NCBI GenBank assembly: GCA_020721205.1
Contig: DYNF01000023.1
Location: 1 to 51,449 of the forward strand
Direction: 5' to 3'
DNA length: 51,449 nt
From: Prochloron sp. SulCav_FS08_3_32_3330
GTDB lineage: Bacteria > Cyanobacteriota > Cyanobacteriia > Cyanobacteriales > DYNF01
Both the position numbers and the translations under genes were made by a program. The notes beneath the pieces are model-generated. The model worked only from the letters and a program-made list of their open reading frames with translations. It had not been told where the DNA came from and did no database searches. This document shows, piece by piece, positions 1,982 to 7,235 of this stretch (positions are counted from its first letter, which is position 1; each line of letters opens with the position of its first letter).

Positions 1982-2482
1982 ATGAAATTATTAAATCGGG
2001 AAATTAACACTAATTTAGTTCAATCTCAAGTTAATTCATTAATCTTAGAATTTTTGCAGAGTGATGATCCCATAGCTGGGCAAATTAAAGAAATATTCAA
2101 AGATCAATCAATTAATGAAATTGCCGATAATTTAGCAAAGTTATGGTATTTAGAATCAGAAGATCAGGAAGATAATTTTTTAGATTTTTTTGTAACTCAT
2201 TCTGATGTAATCAAATCTCAAAATAACCGTAATGTTAGTTTAACTTATCCTCATTCTAATTTAGGATTAGTGGAATTAGTAGATGAATTATTAGATAAAT
2301 TAACAGAAATTTTTAGCAAAGCTCAAACAATTTTAGCCGTTAAAAATATAGAAGAAAATGAAGTCATATATGCTGATTTTTCGGAAATGGCTTATGATTT
2401 AGAATATCAGCAAGAGGCGTTAGAAATTGCCCAAGATTTTGCTTATACTGACTGGGAAGCATTAAAATTAAGTGAGGTTTAA
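1982..2482 (+). CDS. Unknown acidic protein directly upstream of MazF; candidate antitoxin
   Basis: I do not recognise a named family in this 166-residue, strongly acidic, mostly helical protein. It has no membrane segment and no obvious DNA-binding motif. A good Shine-Dalgarno (AAAGGAG, about 1968-1974) precedes the ATG. It is separated from the MazF gene by only three bases, so the two are surely co-transcribed and probably translationally coupled. An acidic partner just ahead of a MazF toxin fits an antitoxin role, but it is about twice the usual antitoxin length. It could instead be a conserved cyanobacterial protein of other function. Confidence 0.55.
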   Translation: MKLLNREINTNLVQSQVNSLILEFLQSDDPIAGQIKEIFKDQSINEIADNLAKLWYLESEDQEDNFLDFFVTHSDVIKSQNNRNVSLTYPHSNLGLVELVDELLDKLTEIFSKAQTILAVKNIEENEVIYADFSEMAYDLEYQQEALEIAQDFAYTDWEALKLSEV

Positions 2483-2485
2483 TTA

Positions 2486-2833
2486 ATGAAAAGAGGAGAA
2501 GTTTATTATGTTGATCTTAATCCCACAGAGGGATCAGAAATAAATAAAATACGTCCAGCAATTATTGTTAGTAATAATGAAATTAATCAATTTAGTACAG
2601 TTATTTTAATTGTACCTTGTACCACTTATAAAAAAGGAAGAAAAATCTATCGAAGTCAAGTATTAATCAAAGCTGATGAAGACGGTTTAACTAATGATTC
2701 TGTCGCTTTAGGAGAACAAATGAGATCAATTTCTAAAACTAGAATTAAAAGTAAGTTGGGTCAAATTTCTGATCAAGTTTTAACTAAAATAGATCAAGCT
2801 TTAGCTGTTGCTTTAAGTTTGAAATTGAAATAA
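2486..2833 (+). CDS. mazF: MazF/PemK-family mRNA interferase toxin
   Basis: This 115-residue protein has the MazF fold signature. It starts with the N-terminal strand RGEVYYVDLNPTEGSE and continues with KIRPAIIVSN (Arg23 of the active site, residues 21-30). The segment SVALGEQMRSISKTRI follows in the position of the conserved S/T-x-x-x-x-Q motif. MazF toxins cut single-stranded RNA at short sequence motifs and arrest growth when their antitoxin is lost. The gene follows a 166-residue acidic gene after three bases and precedes two small unknown genes, so the operon is longer than a standard two-gene pair. The cut-site specificity cannot be read from the sequence. Confidence 0.88.
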   Translation: MKRGEVYYVDLNPTEGSEINKIRPAIIVSNNEINQFSTVILIVPCTTYKKGRKIYRSQVLIKADEDGLTNDSVALGEQMRSISKTRIKSKLGQISDQVLTKIDQALAVALSLKLK

Positions 2834-2851
2834 AAATTTTAGGTGAATATT

Positions 2852-3271
2852 ATGACTTCTCTAATTAATAAAATTGATCAAAATAAAGTTAATAAAGCTT
2901 TTAATATGTTAGCAATGTCAGGAGAATTTAATCAAGATGATGGAGAAATTATTATTTTAATATCAAAAAATATTATAGAAAGAGGTGGCGAAATTTGGCA
3001 AAATTATATTCTTGATTTATCAATGGCAACAGATGTTATGATTAGTTATAATAAAAGAAAGCCTCTTTGTGTCCAATTAACCAGTTTATCAGATGAGTAT
3101 AACCAAAATAAATATCAAGATTGGCAAAAAACTCTTAAAAATTGGGGTATTGATCGAGGTTTATTTTTAAGCTATAATCCTAATGAGAAAAATTTTGTTA
3201 ATCAATTAGTTAACCTAGCTACTTATAATAGTGATCATCTAAAAACTGGTACTTATTTAAAATTTCCTTAA
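2852..3271 (+). CDS. Unknown 139-residue protein in the mazF operon
   Basis: The frame extends upstream to a GTG at 2843, but ATG at 2852 is preferred because AGGTG sits 6 bases before it, where a ribosome site should be. It starts 18 bases after mazF. No named family is recognised. The middle part has an acidic strand (ATDVMIS) followed by a strand PLCVQLTS, then a helix and GIDRGLFLSYNP. This order loosely recalls PD-(D/E)xK nuclease-like folds (D...QxK), but the lysine is missing, so a catalytic role is not supported. It is possibly an accessory or degenerate nuclease-fold protein. Confidence 0.6.
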   Translation: MTSLINKIDQNKVNKAFNMLAMSGEFNQDDGEIIILISKNIIERGGEIWQNYILDLSMATDVMISYNKRKPLCVQLTSLSDEYNQNKYQDWQKTLKNWGIDRGLFLSYNPNEKNFVNQLVNLATYNSDHLKTGTYLKFP

Positions 3272-3296
3272 TAAAACTTATTAATATTATTAAATT

Positions 3297-3785
3297 ATGG
3301 TTACTGCACAAAAAGCTAATCTTGAACAACAAAAACAAAAAATTGCTGATGCTTTAGCTGATGCTCAAAAAATGCAGGAAGATTGGCTAAAATATGGTTT
3401 AGATTTTGTTGATTTATATGTGGAAAATATAGATAGTGACTGGTTAGAAAATTGGGGTAATGATGAAGTATCTAAGCCATGTTTATTAAAGCAATTTTTC
3501 AATCAAAATTGTCAAAGTGTTAAGAAAATTAAGAACTTATTAGGTAATAAATTAGATCAATTTATTAATGATTGTGAAGTTTATCTTAATTTAGCTGATC
3601 AAGATGAACAACTTGAGCAAATTTTATTAGGTTTAAGAAACTGTTTAGGTTTAAATAATTCTGTTTTATTAGTAAGAGGAAATAACAATAACAATAACAA
3701 TTATAATTTTGATGAGGTTGAGTTATTGGAATTAGTTGAGAAATTATTAGAAGATTTTGAGGTATTTTCAAAGGATGAAAATTAA
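3297..3785 (+). CDS. Unknown acidic, coiled-coil-rich protein upstream of the CHAT gene
   Basis: This 162-residue protein starts 25 bases after the previous gene. The N-terminal 35 residues (KANLEQQKQKIADALADAQK) are predicted to be a helical coiled coil. The rest is acidic and leucine-rich. Near residues 128-136 there is a run of asparagines encoded by an AAT/AAC microsatellite (about 3680-3707), which may vary in length between strains. No catalytic motif is visible. It lies last in the four-gene group starting at 1982, with a 222-base repeat-containing gap before the TPR-CHAT gene. Any functional link to that gene is inference from position only. Confidence 0.55.
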   Translation: MVTAQKANLEQQKQKIADALADAQKMQEDWLKYGLDFVDLYVENIDSDWLENWGNDEVSKPCLLKQFFNQNCQSVKKIKNLLGNKLDQFINDCEVYLNLADQDEQLEQILLGLRNCLGLNNSVLLVRGNNNNNNNYNFDEVELLELVEKLLEDFEVFSKDEN

Positions 3786-3799
3786 AGATAAATTAAAAT

Positions 3800-3860
3800 A
3801 GTCGCTTTAGCAGACTTTTGCTATGAGCAATGAAATAAATTTCATTGCGAGATTAATACT
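3800..3860. repeat. Short palindromic repeat, uninterrupted form
   Basis: The hairpin GCAATGAAAT / ATTTCATTGC is preceded by CTTTAGCAGACTTTTGCTAT and followed by GAGATTAATACT. The same flanks occur at 49917-50090, where the hairpin is interrupted by about 115 bases containing another palindrome. This copy therefore looks like the empty site of a nested insertion. The rest of the 3786-4007 gap is AT-rich with no other feature seen. Confidence 0.6.
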
Positions 3861-4007
3861 CAAAACCTTTAACTTTAAAATAAGAGTAAGATTAATGATG
3901 ATAATATTTAACCCGCCTTGCAATAAATTGACAAGGAAACCAACAGCAAAAATCGGCTAAAGCGATTAAGATTAATTTTAAACCTTATTTAATAAAAAAA
4001 AATTAAT

Positions 4008-7000
4008 ATGTCTAAAGGATTTGGTCAACAAAATAAACCTCAAAATCAAAAACAACAATATCAAATTTATCGTAAATTTGTTGAAGATTTATTTAATGCT
4101 GTTTCACGCCAAAAAGCAAAAAAAATACTTATTAAAAATATACATAAGATAGATGTTCTGTTTATAGAAATATTTATTAAATATTACACTCAACTAATTG
4201 AGGAAAATTTAGAATCACACAAAGAACTAATTTCCAAAAAATTTTGTGCATTAATGGGATTGCTTCAAGAATTAAGTATTGATAATTTAGTAAAGAATAT
4301 AGAGGTTGCTATAATAGGGTTTAATTTTTTGCTTAGTCAATGTCAAAATAATTCGGAAATTGAGGTAATGGTAAAATACCAACTAGGAATTGCTTATCTT
4401 AAACGTATTAATGGCGAGAAACGAGAAAATATAGAGATAGCGATAACATTTTTTAAAAATGCTTTACAAGCATCTAATCGTGATCAATATGGGAAAATAC
4501 AAATTTTCTTGGGAATTGCTTATGTTGAACGCATTGAAGGCGAAAAAAGAGATAATTTAGAAAAGGCAATTACTTATTGTGAAAATGCTTTACAAATATT
4601 TACCCGTGAGTCTTTTCCTGAAAATTGGGCAATGATTCAAACTCTCTTAGCAAGAGTTTATATAATTTATATAAAACTTATAGAAGGACATCAAAAAGAG
4701 AATTTAGAAAAGGCAATTACTGATTGTGAAAACGCCTTACAAATATTTACCCGTAAGGCTTTTCCTGAAGATTGGGCTGAACTTCAAAATAACTTAGGGA
4801 TTATTTACAGAAACCGTATCAAAGGCGAGAAAAGAGAAAATATAGAAAAAGCGATAATATCTTTTAAAAATGCTTTACAAATATATAATCTTGAGGAAAA
4901 GACTCAAGACTGGGCTGGTATTCAAAGCAACTTAGCAATTTCTTATGCTCAAAGAATTGAGGGAGAAAAAAAGGATAATTTAGAAACAGCAATTGCTTAT
5001 TTTAAAGATGCTTTACAAATAATAAATTGTGAAAAAAATCCTTATGGTTGGGCTGATATTCAAAATAATTTAGGTGATACTTATTTAAAACTTCTTGAAG
5101 TAGATCAAAAAAATAATTTACAAATAGCAATTACTTGTTTTGAAAATGCTTTATCAGTATGTACTCATGAAGCTTTTCCTGAAAAATGGGCAATGTTTCA
5201 AGGTAATTTAGGAAATTGTTATTCACAAAGTACAGAAGGAGAAAAAAGAGATAATTTAGAAAAAGCAATATCTTATTATCAAAATGCCTTAGAAGTATTG
5301 ACTTTTGATTCTTTTCCTCAAGATTGGACAATGCTACAAACTAATTTAGGAATTGCTTACTTACAAAGAATCGAAGGTAAGAAAAAAGATAATTTTTTAA
5401 ATGCTATCATTTATTTTAAAAATGCTTTGCAAATTCATACTCCAAAAGCATTTCCTTTATCTTGTCTACAAAATGCCCGTAATTTAGGAAATATAGGAGT
5501 TGTTTTGCAAAATTGGCAATTAGCAATAGAAGGTTACAGTTTAGCAATTGAAGCAATAGAAATAACTCGTAGTTGGGCAAAAACTGATCAACGCCGTCAA
5601 GAAATTTTAGCTCAATCTCTTGATGTTTATGAAAATATGGTACAAGCTTGTATTAATGCAGGAGAATTAGAAAAAGCCATTGAAACAGTAGAAAGATCAC
5701 GGAGTAAATATTTAGTTGATTTAATGGCAAGTAATGACTTATATAATGATGGTAAAATACCGCCCGAAGTTGAATCTTTATTACAAAAATATCAAAAAAA
5801 ACAAAACCAAATTGACTTAGAACAATCTTTGCTTAAAAATAACTCTAATAATGAGAAAAAATTAGATCGGATTTCTTTTGATCGTTCTAATGAAACTATT
5901 GAAGAATTAAACAAAGAAAAACAACAAATTTGGCTAGAAATTCGTAAATTTGATCCCGTTTTAGCAGGAGAAATTAAAGTTGATCCCTTGCCATTTTCCG
6001 CAATGCAAAAATTAATTAAATCTCCTGATACTGCTATCCTTAGTTTTTATACCACTAAGACAGATACTCATATATTTATTATTAAACAGCCCTCACCCCC
6101 TGCCCCTCTCCCACAGGGCGAGGGGTGTAATGGAATTTACCTTTATACTTGTGAGGGAGAAGGTTTAGATAATTTACAAAATTGGCTTAGTGAAAATTGG
6201 TTACAAACCTATATTAATAATTATCAAAATTGGTTAGATAATATTAATAATATTCTCACTAAATTATCCCAAAAATTAAAACTTAATCAATTAATAGATC
6301 AACATTTAAACGATATTCAAGAATTGATAATTATTCCCCATTTAAGTTTACATTTAATACCCTTTTCTGCTTTACCTATTAATGAAAGCGAATATTTAGG
6401 CGATCGCTTTTTAATTCGTTATACTCCTAGCAGTCAAATCTTAAAATTTTGTGATGAAAGAAACCCCATTAAAACTAATCTTAAATATGGCACAGTAGAA
6501 GATGCTACAAATGATTTACCCTGTGCTAGTTTTGAAGGTGATCAAATAGCTAATTTATATAATATTCCTGATCAATTTAGATTACAAGGAAAGGCAAATG
6601 CTACCTGTGAAAATTATCGAGAATTAATGAAAAAAGTTAATATTATTCATTCTTGTCACCATGCAAAATTTAACTTAAATGATCCTTTAAATTCTGCTTT
6701 AGAATTAAGTGATGGTAAGATAACTTTAGGGCAATTAATGTCACCTTCATGGCGTTTTGATAAAACCTTATCTGATGTATTTTTATCCTGTTGTGAAACG
6801 GGTTTAGGTACACCTGAAATAACTGATGATATTTTAACTCTTTCAGCAGGTTTTTTATGTGCAGGGGCTAGAAGTGTAATTAGCACTTTATGGGCTGTAA
6901 ATGACCTTGCAACCGCTTTATTTTCACTTTTTTATTATCAATATCGTAATGAAGAAAAAACTCGTCCACAAGCTTTAAAACAAGCACAGATTAAGTTAAG

Positions 7001-7235
7001 AAATATGACGAAAAATGAATTAAGTGATTTTTCTATAATTATTAATCAAAAAAGAAAAGAAGCGAGAAATAATAAAAAATTAGTTCCCGAAAATTCTTTT
7101 GAATCTGAAAAATGGGATCAAGAATATCAAAAATATGTAAATTTAACTAATCAAATTATTAATTTTAAACAGTTAGATTATCCTTTTTCTCATCAACAAT
7201 ATTGGGCTGGTTTTATTTGTCATGGATTACAATAA
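4008..7235 (+). CDS. TPR-repeat protein with C-terminal CHAT (caspase-like) protease domain
   Basis: This 1075-residue protein has an N-terminal helical region, then eight tandem TPR-like repeats of about 45-50 residues (about 135-498, consensus I-x-GEKRDNLEKAI-x-x-F-x-NALQ). A linker follows, then a CHAT domain from about residue 790 to the end. The caspase-like dyad is present: His884 in HSCHHAKF (usually xxCHG) and Cys929 in LSCCETG (usually LSACETG). The distal AGARSVISTLWAVND motif is also typical. CHAT proteins are often peptidases activated by partners that bind the TPR part, and some act in defence or programmed cell death. Substrate and trigger are unknown here. Residues 695-706 (PSPPAPLPQGEG) come from an inserted DNA repeat. 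It converges with the export operon. Confidence 0.85.
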   Translation: MSKGFGQQNKPQNQKQQYQIYRKFVEDLFNAVSRQKAKKILIKNIHKIDVLFIEIFIKYYTQLIEENLESHKELISKKFCALMGLLQELSIDNLVKNIEVAIIGFNFLLSQCQNNSEIEVMVKYQLGIAYLKRINGEKRENIEIAITFFKNALQASNRDQYGKIQIFLGIAYVERIEGEKRDNLEKAITYCENALQIFTRESFPENWAMIQTLLARVYIIYIKLIEGHQKENLEKAITDCENALQIFTRKAFPEDWAELQNNLGIIYRNRIKGEKRENIEKAIISFKNALQIYNLEEKTQDWAGIQSNLAISYAQRIEGEKKDNLETAIAYFKDALQIINCEKNPYGWADIQNNLGDTYLKLLEVDQKNNLQIAITCFENALSVCTHEAFPEKWAMFQGNLGNCYSQSTEGEKRDNLEKAISYYQNALEVLTFDSFPQDWTMLQTNLGIAYLQRIEGKKKDNFLNAIIYFKNALQIHTPKAFPLSCLQNARNLGNIGVVLQNWQLAIEGYSLAIEAIEITRSWAKTDQRRQEILAQSLDVYENMVQACINAGELEKAIETVERSRSKYLVDLMASNDLYNDGKIPPEVESLLQKYQKKQNQIDLEQSLLKNNSNNEKKLDRISFDRSNETIEELNKEKQQIWLEIRKFDPVLAGEIKVDPLPFSAMQKLIKSPDTAILSFYTTKTDTHIFIIKQPSPPAPLPQGEGCNGIYLYTCEGEGLDNLQNWLSENWLQTYINNYQNWLDNINNILTKLSQKLKLNQLIDQHLNDIQELIIIPHLSLHLIPFSALPINESEYLGDRFLIRYTPSSQILKFCDERNPIKTNLKYGTVEDATNDLPCASFEGDQIANLYNIPDQFRLQGKANATCENYRELMKKVNIIHSCHHAKFNLNDPLNSALELSDGKITLGQLMSPSWRFDKTLSDVFLSCCETGLGTPEITDDILTLSAGFLCAGARSVISTLWAVNDLATALFSLFYYQYRNEEKTRPQALKQAQIKLRNMTKNELSDFSIIINQKRKEARNNKKLVPENSFESEKWDQEYQKYVNLTNQIINFKQLDYPFSHQQYWAGFICHGLQ
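6090..6125 (+). repeat. Palindromic repeat read in frame inside the CHAT gene
   Basis: This is a GC-rich block in an AT-rich gene with arms CCCCTC and GAGGGG. It encodes PSPPAPLPQGEG (residues 695-706) within a linker just before the CHAT region. The base composition differs sharply from its surroundings, and the length (36 bases) keeps the frame. I recognise this kind of sequence as a widespread interspersed repeat in bacterial genomes. Other copies in this genome cannot be checked from this window. Confidence 0.65.

Follow-up and report, generated by a model that had tools for sequence, protein, structure and literature searches.

The question raised by one stretch of cyanobacterial DNA is what a gene for a MazF toxin has to do with the gene for a TPR-CHAT caspase-like protease that follows it on the same strand. 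The stretch (the window, below) is positions 1 to 51,449 of contig DYNF01000023.1 of Prochloron sp. SulCav_FS08_3_32_3330 (assembly GCA_020721205.1), in which five genes encode, in this order, a 166-residue protein (A166), MazF, a shortened member of a family that we call B (B142), its partner C162, and the TPR-CHAT protein. The original prediction, made from the letters alone, had described these five genes, and all of the open reading frames (ORFs) are present and open on the forward strand in the order and with the spacing that it gave. Our tentative answer, to which we give close to an even chance, is a toxin-antitoxin switch under the control of a protease, in which the CHAT protein would cut a small domain carried by the antitoxin and thereby release MazF.

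A probable hybrid antitoxin beside MazF

The toxin itself was correctly named by the original prediction. It scores 106.1 bits against PF02452 (cut-off 23.1) over residues 2-109 and matches the solved EndoA chain 4me7_A with an E-value of 7.5e-19; by these matches, it is a member of PF02452 and a predicted RNA-cleaving toxin. The three other small proteins, of 166, 142, and 162 residues, have no Pfam family over cut-off and no NCBIfam family, which agrees with the earlier listing of all three as unknowns. What that listing missed includes the hybrid nature of A166 and a domain that it shares with C162.

A166 is best considered in two parts. Its tail (residues ~123-165) is 51-53% identical to short MazE-type antitoxins in four matches and 49-54% identical in a second comparison. 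One antitoxin that shares this tail (locus L094) directly precedes a MazF 49% identical to that of the window, and its front scores 19.9 against RHH_1 in Pfam, slightly below the cut-off of 20.5. At the N-terminus of A166, no ribbon-helix-helix domain was found (there is no Pfam match, and the structure model is all-helical there), and in its place lies a helical domain of ~95 residues without Pfam or NCBIfam match, to which we give the name CTD. A hidden Markov model of the CTD matches residues 21-111 with an E-value of 1e-18, and the AlphaFold2 (AF2) model of the protein has a mean predicted local distance difference test (pLDDT) score of 84 and a predicted template modeling score of 0.64. 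Taken together, the alignments make A166 a likely MazF antitoxin, a hybrid with a swapped-in front domain. Fold searches with A166 gave no lead on the fold of the CTD: the best Foldseek match has an E-value of 2.2, and VIA-align gives a best Z of 5.9 to part of a mitochondrial RNA polymerase, followed by mixed helical proteins. A similarity of A166 to PDC-S21 (PADLOC, E 0.0015) was a single weak match and was dropped.

A comparison is offered by strain ESFC-1 (L177 = L231), where the order is a HigB-type toxin; one protein that combines an XRE domain, CTD, and MazE tail; MazF; a 199-residue protein; and TPR-CHAT. The pairing of MazF and CHAT thus recurs, with the hybrid built on a different N-terminus than that of A166, and the five genes of the block belong together, as had been proposed for the MazF operon and the CHAT gene. 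The loci share with the type II pairs MazEF and HigBA the toxin families PF02452 and PF05973, the MazE-type tail, and the XRE-type antitoxin; they differ in that the antitoxins carry the additional CTD, which in A166 takes the position of the DNA-binding domain.

Distribution of the CTD and its linkage to CHAT genes

The CTD forms the front of A166 and the back half of C162 and its relatives. Searched for within cyanobacteria, it is found in 84 of 291 genomes of the order (E ≤ 0.001) and in 32 of 388 genomes of the class (E ≤ 1e-4; four of the 32 outside the order), where the two samples overlap and, in several genomes, only some of the candidates were scored. The regions around the matches gave 191 CTD ORFs, or 171 distinct sequences; the 191 include genomes present in both collections (L069 = L258, L177 = L231). 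L226, a duplicate of L134, is kept among the 191 and excluded from the 171 and from the regional survey. For the comparison of loop residues below, four CTD pieces with fewer than 75 aligned residues were dropped (the one in L225 looks like a chance match in a histidine kinase), and dereplication at 85% then reduced the 191 to 115 representatives. The CTD gene of L138, masked by a longer overlapping ORF, was confirmed via direct translation.

Among the 171 distinct sequences, CTD proteins of the XRE/HigA type come directly after a Gp49/HigB-type gene (Pfam) in 28 of 30 cases, DUF1822-CTD proteins after a sigma-like gene in 55 of 67, C-type proteins directly after B in 59 of 65, and N196-CTD proteins after x127 in both instances. 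As read from these sequences, the gene order is effector, then inhibitor with CTD, and the domain recurs on unrelated inhibitors. The label "sigma-like" combines the published context of DUF1822 (PMC8195603) with our own reading. The CTD is also fused to TRADD-like_N (PF20694) at L188:4299-5249, which carries XRE as well, and at L182:6982-7509, in each case directly or shortly before TPR-CHAT. On a tree with 115 rows, the architectures need 11 changes (minimum 5); since good support is limited to 15 of its 112 inner branches, repeated swapping is likely but not proven.

In the regional survey, a CHAT gene starts on the same strand within 3.5 kb downstream of 41 of 115 CTD ORFs, against a chance expectation of ~0.7% per gene if the CHAT density of the window's genome (18 in 4.73 Mb) is assumed. 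The linkage differs by context, with 36 of 69 CTD ORFs that are not preceded by B being CHAT-linked versus 5 of 46 that are. From the side of the protease, we scanned the contigs of the best 80 of 150 CHAT relatives, all 80 with cyanobacterial titles: a CTD gene lies upstream in 58, none in 11, and the remaining 11 have less than 1.5 kb of upstream sequence. When the last group, which is without CTD, is set aside, the linked loci are 58 of 69 informative ones, with a median gap of 56.5 bp. Among the 18 CHAT genes in the window's own genome, we found a CTD link for two, one in the window and one on contig C90; of its eight PemK/MazF genes, only that of the window is at one of the genome's three CTD places.

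One XRE/HigA-type family allows a comparison of copies with and without the domain. Its 23 homologues in the 291 genomes have an adjoining CHAT gene in 9 of 11 cases with CTD and in 0 of 12 without; one of the two CTD-bearing misses is a contig end, and one of the 12 CTD-less copies has a nearby CHAT gene on the opposite strand. A CTD-less copy with 76% identity, in genome G316, has lost the CTD and has no CHAT gene in the stretch read. At L340:3449-4695, there is a HigB-type gene, an XRE gene ending before the CTD, and an N196 remnant, with no CHAT found; here, the loss of CHAT may have accompanied that of the CTD.

The original prediction turned on whether the small families recur beside TPR-CHAT genes in other cyanobacteria, and it passes that check because they do. 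In Cylindrospermum FACHB-282 (L069 = L258), B and C are followed by a TPR-CHAT gene whose product is 45% identical to that of the window, and this B-C-CHAT order without MazF is found in seven other named loci.

Several further loci are worth recording. The C90 locus (L095:4864-11019) contains a sigma-like gene, so called by position and reading, a DUF1822-CTD gene, a pair of small genes on the opposite strand, one of them XRE-like by eye, and a 1266-residue TPR-CHAT protein; a 637-residue ORF lies further upstream. A gene of ~190 residues stands between the CTD gene and TPR-CHAT at L127:5332-5886 and L177:5818-6417, the latter copy without Pfam match. Judging by the record titles, CTD-CHAT loci L232, L282, and L259 are plasmid-borne, in Nostoc carneum and Cylindrospermum, which suggests mobility.

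A candidate cut site and the switch it may serve

The TPR-CHAT identity given by the original prediction is equally firm (PF12770, 135 bits against a cut-off of 24, with TPR upstream). The catalytic dyad is intact, as claimed, but its histidine is one residue off: residues 881-886 read HSCHHA, and alignment to Csx29 places the catalytic His at H885 rather than His884, while Cys remains C929. Searched against PDB at E ≤ 0.001, the CHAT profile matches only CHAT-domain and Csx29 chains (7 sequences). A proline-rich stretch, SPPAPLPQGEG, with a repeat-like look, is encoded at 6093-6125, ahead of the CHAT domain.

The closest known system is Csx29/Csx30/CASP-sigma of type III-E CRISPR, which has in common with the window a TPR-CHAT protein, an alignable His/Cys dyad, and an effector inhibitor encoded nearby. 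As the Csx29 study reports in its account of Csx30, the protease cuts this sigma-factor inhibitor at a small, flexible loop in the C-terminal domain, while sigma is bound by the other domain; that the fragments are then degraded further is the authors' suggestion (PMC10028731). The cut in Csx30 is thus away from the effector-binding part, an arrangement that we only infer for the window.

In the CTD, the corresponding candidate is the loop before the last helix, which is variable in length and sequence save for one basic residue. R83 of A166 is at least 90% conserved across the 49 rows of alignment A4, and it ends residues 80-83, the sole segment of the A166 model with a pLDDT below 50, so that the conserved Arg sits in a loop left unstructured in that one model. 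Across 56 dereplicated CHAT-linked CTDs, the loop residue is Arg in 54 and Lys in 2. Counted strictly by the aligned column, Arg occurs in 53 of the same 56, Lys in 2, and Asn in 1; the one with Asn is C162, whose neighbor A166 does have the Arg. Across columns 75-133, no further residue exceeds a count of 29 in this set.

In the reading we favor, A166 would neutralize MazF through its MazE-type tail, and its CTD would bind the neighboring TPR-CHAT protease and present the antitoxin to it. Some signal would activate the protease, which may then cut the exposed CTD loop after R83; the broken A166 would be degraded, MazF freed, and RNA cut, possibly in the service of defense or cell death. The original prediction had put MazF first and CHAT second in a two-step arrest. 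This is not the best-supported order, because comparison with Csx29, Csx30, and sigma points to CHAT as the first actor, by which the toxin would be released, although either direction has to be inferred.

A number of observations weigh against this reading. The MazE tail would stay on the fragment after a cut at R83, so further degradation must be assumed. The hybrid of MazE tail and CTD occurs in only two genomes among the loci read (the window's and ESFC-1), and the CTD of A166 has diverged from the others (36% identity at best, with a long branch on the tree). Against PDB sequences, the CTD finds nothing below E 0.16, and the two sigma-like representatives scanned have no Pfam sigma match. 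Because all eight seeds were CTD-linked, the 80-locus survey describes only that subfamily, and no CTD neighbor was found for 16 of the 18 CHAT genes of the window's own genome. In the XRE family, all but one of the 12 CTD-less copies are remote relatives (42-56% identity), and the HigA-type contrast (p 7e-5) does not count independent events, since it falls largely into two clades and is confounded by ancestry. As for the arginine, the 54 loop-Arg representatives include C162, in which the Arg does not fall in the aligned column; 37 of the 59 unlinked CTDs also keep Arg; the association of loop Arg with CHAT linkage (Fisher p 5e-6) is not independent of ancestry; and an independent-pairs test on the tree, with 4 supported pairs, shows no trend. 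The alanine scan of Csx30, as reported, found no residue essential for cleavage (PMC10028731), unlike a fixed Arg.

The 22 Arg-less unlinked representatives are all C proteins after B and look like few evolutionary events. Since, in addition, the independent pairs give no signal, we rejected the Fisher test as proof of an Arg-CHAT association and rely on conservation instead of the p-value.

The same linkage data would fit the reverse direction, in which the CTD docks the antitoxin to hold TPR-CHAT inactive, and antitoxin loss or toxin engagement frees CHAT as the killer, which would go on to cleave other proteins of the cell, with the toxin-antitoxin pair as sensor. TPR proteins serve as docking platforms, and persistence of the CTD in those 22 Arg-less representatives implies that it has some role there besides cleavage at Arg. 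We nevertheless consider this direction unlikely, if worth taking seriously: it leaves unexplained why a basic residue is kept in a variable loop of nearly all CHAT-linked CTDs, and the closest solved relative, Csx29, works the other way.

Rather less credible is a pure adaptor, a CTD of the effector-associated-domain kind that assembles effectors and CHAT while the loop Arg is structural or makes a contact and nothing is cut. The fusions to TRADD-like_N in L188 and L182 favor it, TRADD-N being described as an adaptor in systems predicted to kill the cell in multicellular bacteria (PMC8195603), and so does the account of DUF1822 and an extracytoplasmic function (ECF) sigma factor beside caspase genes in the same paper. 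However, the Arg is in the sole very-low-confidence segment of the A166 model and is not packed, and a loop column that is basic in 55 of 56 representatives is more than a plain adaptor would seem to need.

The switch that we favor would have known counterparts. That a TPR-CHAT protease cuts an inhibitor, that a Lon-SAVED protease cuts CalpT, and that DUF1822 and sigma genes lie near caspases has been described before. The window differs from type III-E Craspase (reviewed in PMC11127173) in having neither Cas7-11 nor another Cas gene among the four flanking genes scanned, and RAMP-family (PF03787) matches in its genome are found only on another contig, C114. The inhibitors also differ from that of Csx29, being antitoxins, DUF1822, or C proteins here, with a near-fixed Arg where the published Csx30 scan reports no essential residue; a search of PDB sequences with the CTD profile gave no Csx30 chain. 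CalpL/CalpT/CalpS (CRISPR Lon-SAVED protease, anti-sigma, sigma) is alike in joining protease, inhibitor, and effector in one complex, and its CalpT inhibitor is cleaved, the effector being thought freed (PMC11417357); it differs by its Lon-type protease, its cyclic oligoadenylate switch, and the lack of CHAT in the system as described. The EACC2-caspase neighborhoods, with DUF1822 and ECF sigma beside caspase-fold protease genes and a predicted death or immunity role (eLife 2021, PMC8195603), share DUF1822 and the sigma gene with CTD loci, while section 9 of that paper is without CHAT, toxin-antitoxin, or CTD-like domain. A CHAT gene appears in a MoxR/VWA conflict-system neighborhood with Npun_ locus tags (PMC12691664), and DUF1822 is in tables of PMC9679502. 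In the searches that we made of open-access PMC papers, no report of the CTD, or of CHAT joined to antitoxins, was found.

With somewhat more reserve, we suggest that cyanobacteria possess a modular family of CHAT-gated switches. One ~95-residue CTD, cut after a fixed Arg or Lys, would be grafted onto HigA-type and MazE-type antitoxins, DUF1822, inhibitors of B, and TRADD-N, and one protease design would release different toxins or transcription factors, sometimes two per locus.

The second pair and the layout of the locus

The original prediction gave the third gene product as a 139-residue protein, which is correct from its ATG; from an upstream GTG it has 142 residues. It was overlooked that this is the C-terminal half of a family of ~230 residues: B142 aligns to residues 113-230 of B, and its front half is therefore missing. 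Relatives occur in 18 of 194 class genomes (own one included), mostly with ~230 residues, and identity is 53-62% to the B proteins of those order relatives with the long-conserved B gene, falling to 27-47% for remoter ones. A 162-like gene comes next as a rule, but not always (L088-L090 are without one).

"Loosely nuclease-like," as B142 had been called, is fair for the predicted fold; nuclease activity is a conjecture. In the AF2 model of a full-length relative, the front is helical, and the C-terminal part weakly resembles restriction-type nucleases (Vsr, VRR_NUC, Holliday resolvases), with matches to Vsr at Z 5.0 (120 aligned, 7.1 Å) and Z 4.6 (101 aligned, 3.3 Å) and to VRR_NUC at Z 4.3 (88 aligned, 3.9 Å); Foldseek gives VRR_NUC a probability of 0.95 but an E-value of 0.09, and the best PDB sequence match has an E-value of 0.045. 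No D...(D/E)-x-K motif was found in 17 alignment rows, where an invariant D152 is followed by Q166-x-T168. With QxT in place of ExK, a catalytically canonical PD-(D/E)XK enzyme is not supported; the catalytic Lys may have migrated, the invariant K178 being a candidate.

C162 carries a recognizable CTD (E 7e-11), with Asn at the conserved Arg column and a loop Arg of its own off that column. We propose B/C as another pair of effector and inhibitor, built like MazF/A166, here with a shortened B. Because B is shortened and the conserved column of C162 has no Arg, the MazE hybrid may have taken over the switch from C. At L076:4810-5838, downstream of a B gene, a C-type N-terminus is fused to an RNase III domain (PF00636) in place of the CTD.

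The original prediction considered its case weakened by the 222-base gap before the CHAT gene (Table 1). The gap is real. A dispersed repeat accounts for most of its length and has at least 82 matches in this genome, counting itself, with 40 of 219 candidates scored; the gap therefore says little against linkage, and we rejected it as an argument. Some sites of the repeat were matched in both orientations, and it resembles a miniature inverted-repeat element. Promoter predictions are near shuffle level (42 versus 35.3, standard deviation 5.7), as are terminators (1 versus 1.7). The block is flanked on the left by gatC and bacA/uppP and on the right, on the other strand, by genes for HlyD and a C39-peptidase ABC transporter.

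Table 1. Features of the MazF and TPR-CHAT block, in window positions
Feature	Position	Strand	Description	Evidence
Gene A166	1982..2482	+	166 aa; likely hybrid antitoxin, CTD plus MazE-type MazF-binding tail	
CTD of A166	2024..2317	+	Residues ~15-112; helical, single low-confidence loop	Alignments A2, A4; AF2 model
R83 codon	2228..2230	+	Conserved loop Arg; putative cleavage point	
MazE-type tail of A166	2348..2476	+	Residues ~123-165	Alignment with short antitoxins
MazF/PemK	2486..2833	+	115 aa; mRNA interferase-like toxin	PF02452; EndoA chain 4me7_A
Truncated B gene (B142)	2843..3271	+	142 aa from GTG; 139 aa from ATG at 2852	
C162	3297..3785	+	162 aa; inhibitor-like B partner; divergent CTD at residues 64-154	
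Intergenic stretch	3786..4007	+	Mostly dispersed repeat	
TPR-CHAT	4008..7235	+	1075 aa; caspase-like protease	PF12770 + TPR
CHAT domain	6285..7226	+	Residues 760-1073	PF12770
Catalytic dyad	6660-6662; 6792-6794	+	H885 codon; C929 codon	Alignment to Csx29

Truncation of B, the divergent CTD of C162, the repeat inside the operon, and the rarity of the window-type mazEF hybrid might suggest that mazEF recombined into a B-C-CHAT locus and was fused by accident to a CTD remnant, leaving an addiction module only or decaying debris, but this is very unlikely, given that all ORFs are open, that B142 retains the invariant residues of the C-terminal half of its family at 53% identity, that A166 still has R83 and its MazE-type tail in full, and that a hybrid with the same logic but another N-terminus exists in ESFC-1.

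How toxins come free of type II antitoxins in the living cell is often unclear once general degradation is set aside. In this block, the genes for a dedicated protease of caspase-like type and for a domain that is a candidate for cleavage lie next to a toxin-antitoxin pair, with a single residue that can be mutated. If the switch reading is true, the Csx29-Csx30 principle would reach beyond CRISPR into toxin-antitoxin and sigma modules that have none, part of the large cyanobacterial CHAT repertoire, which in this genome alone comprises 18 genes, would gain a function, and the proteases of bacterial programmed death would be linked to growth-arrest toxins.

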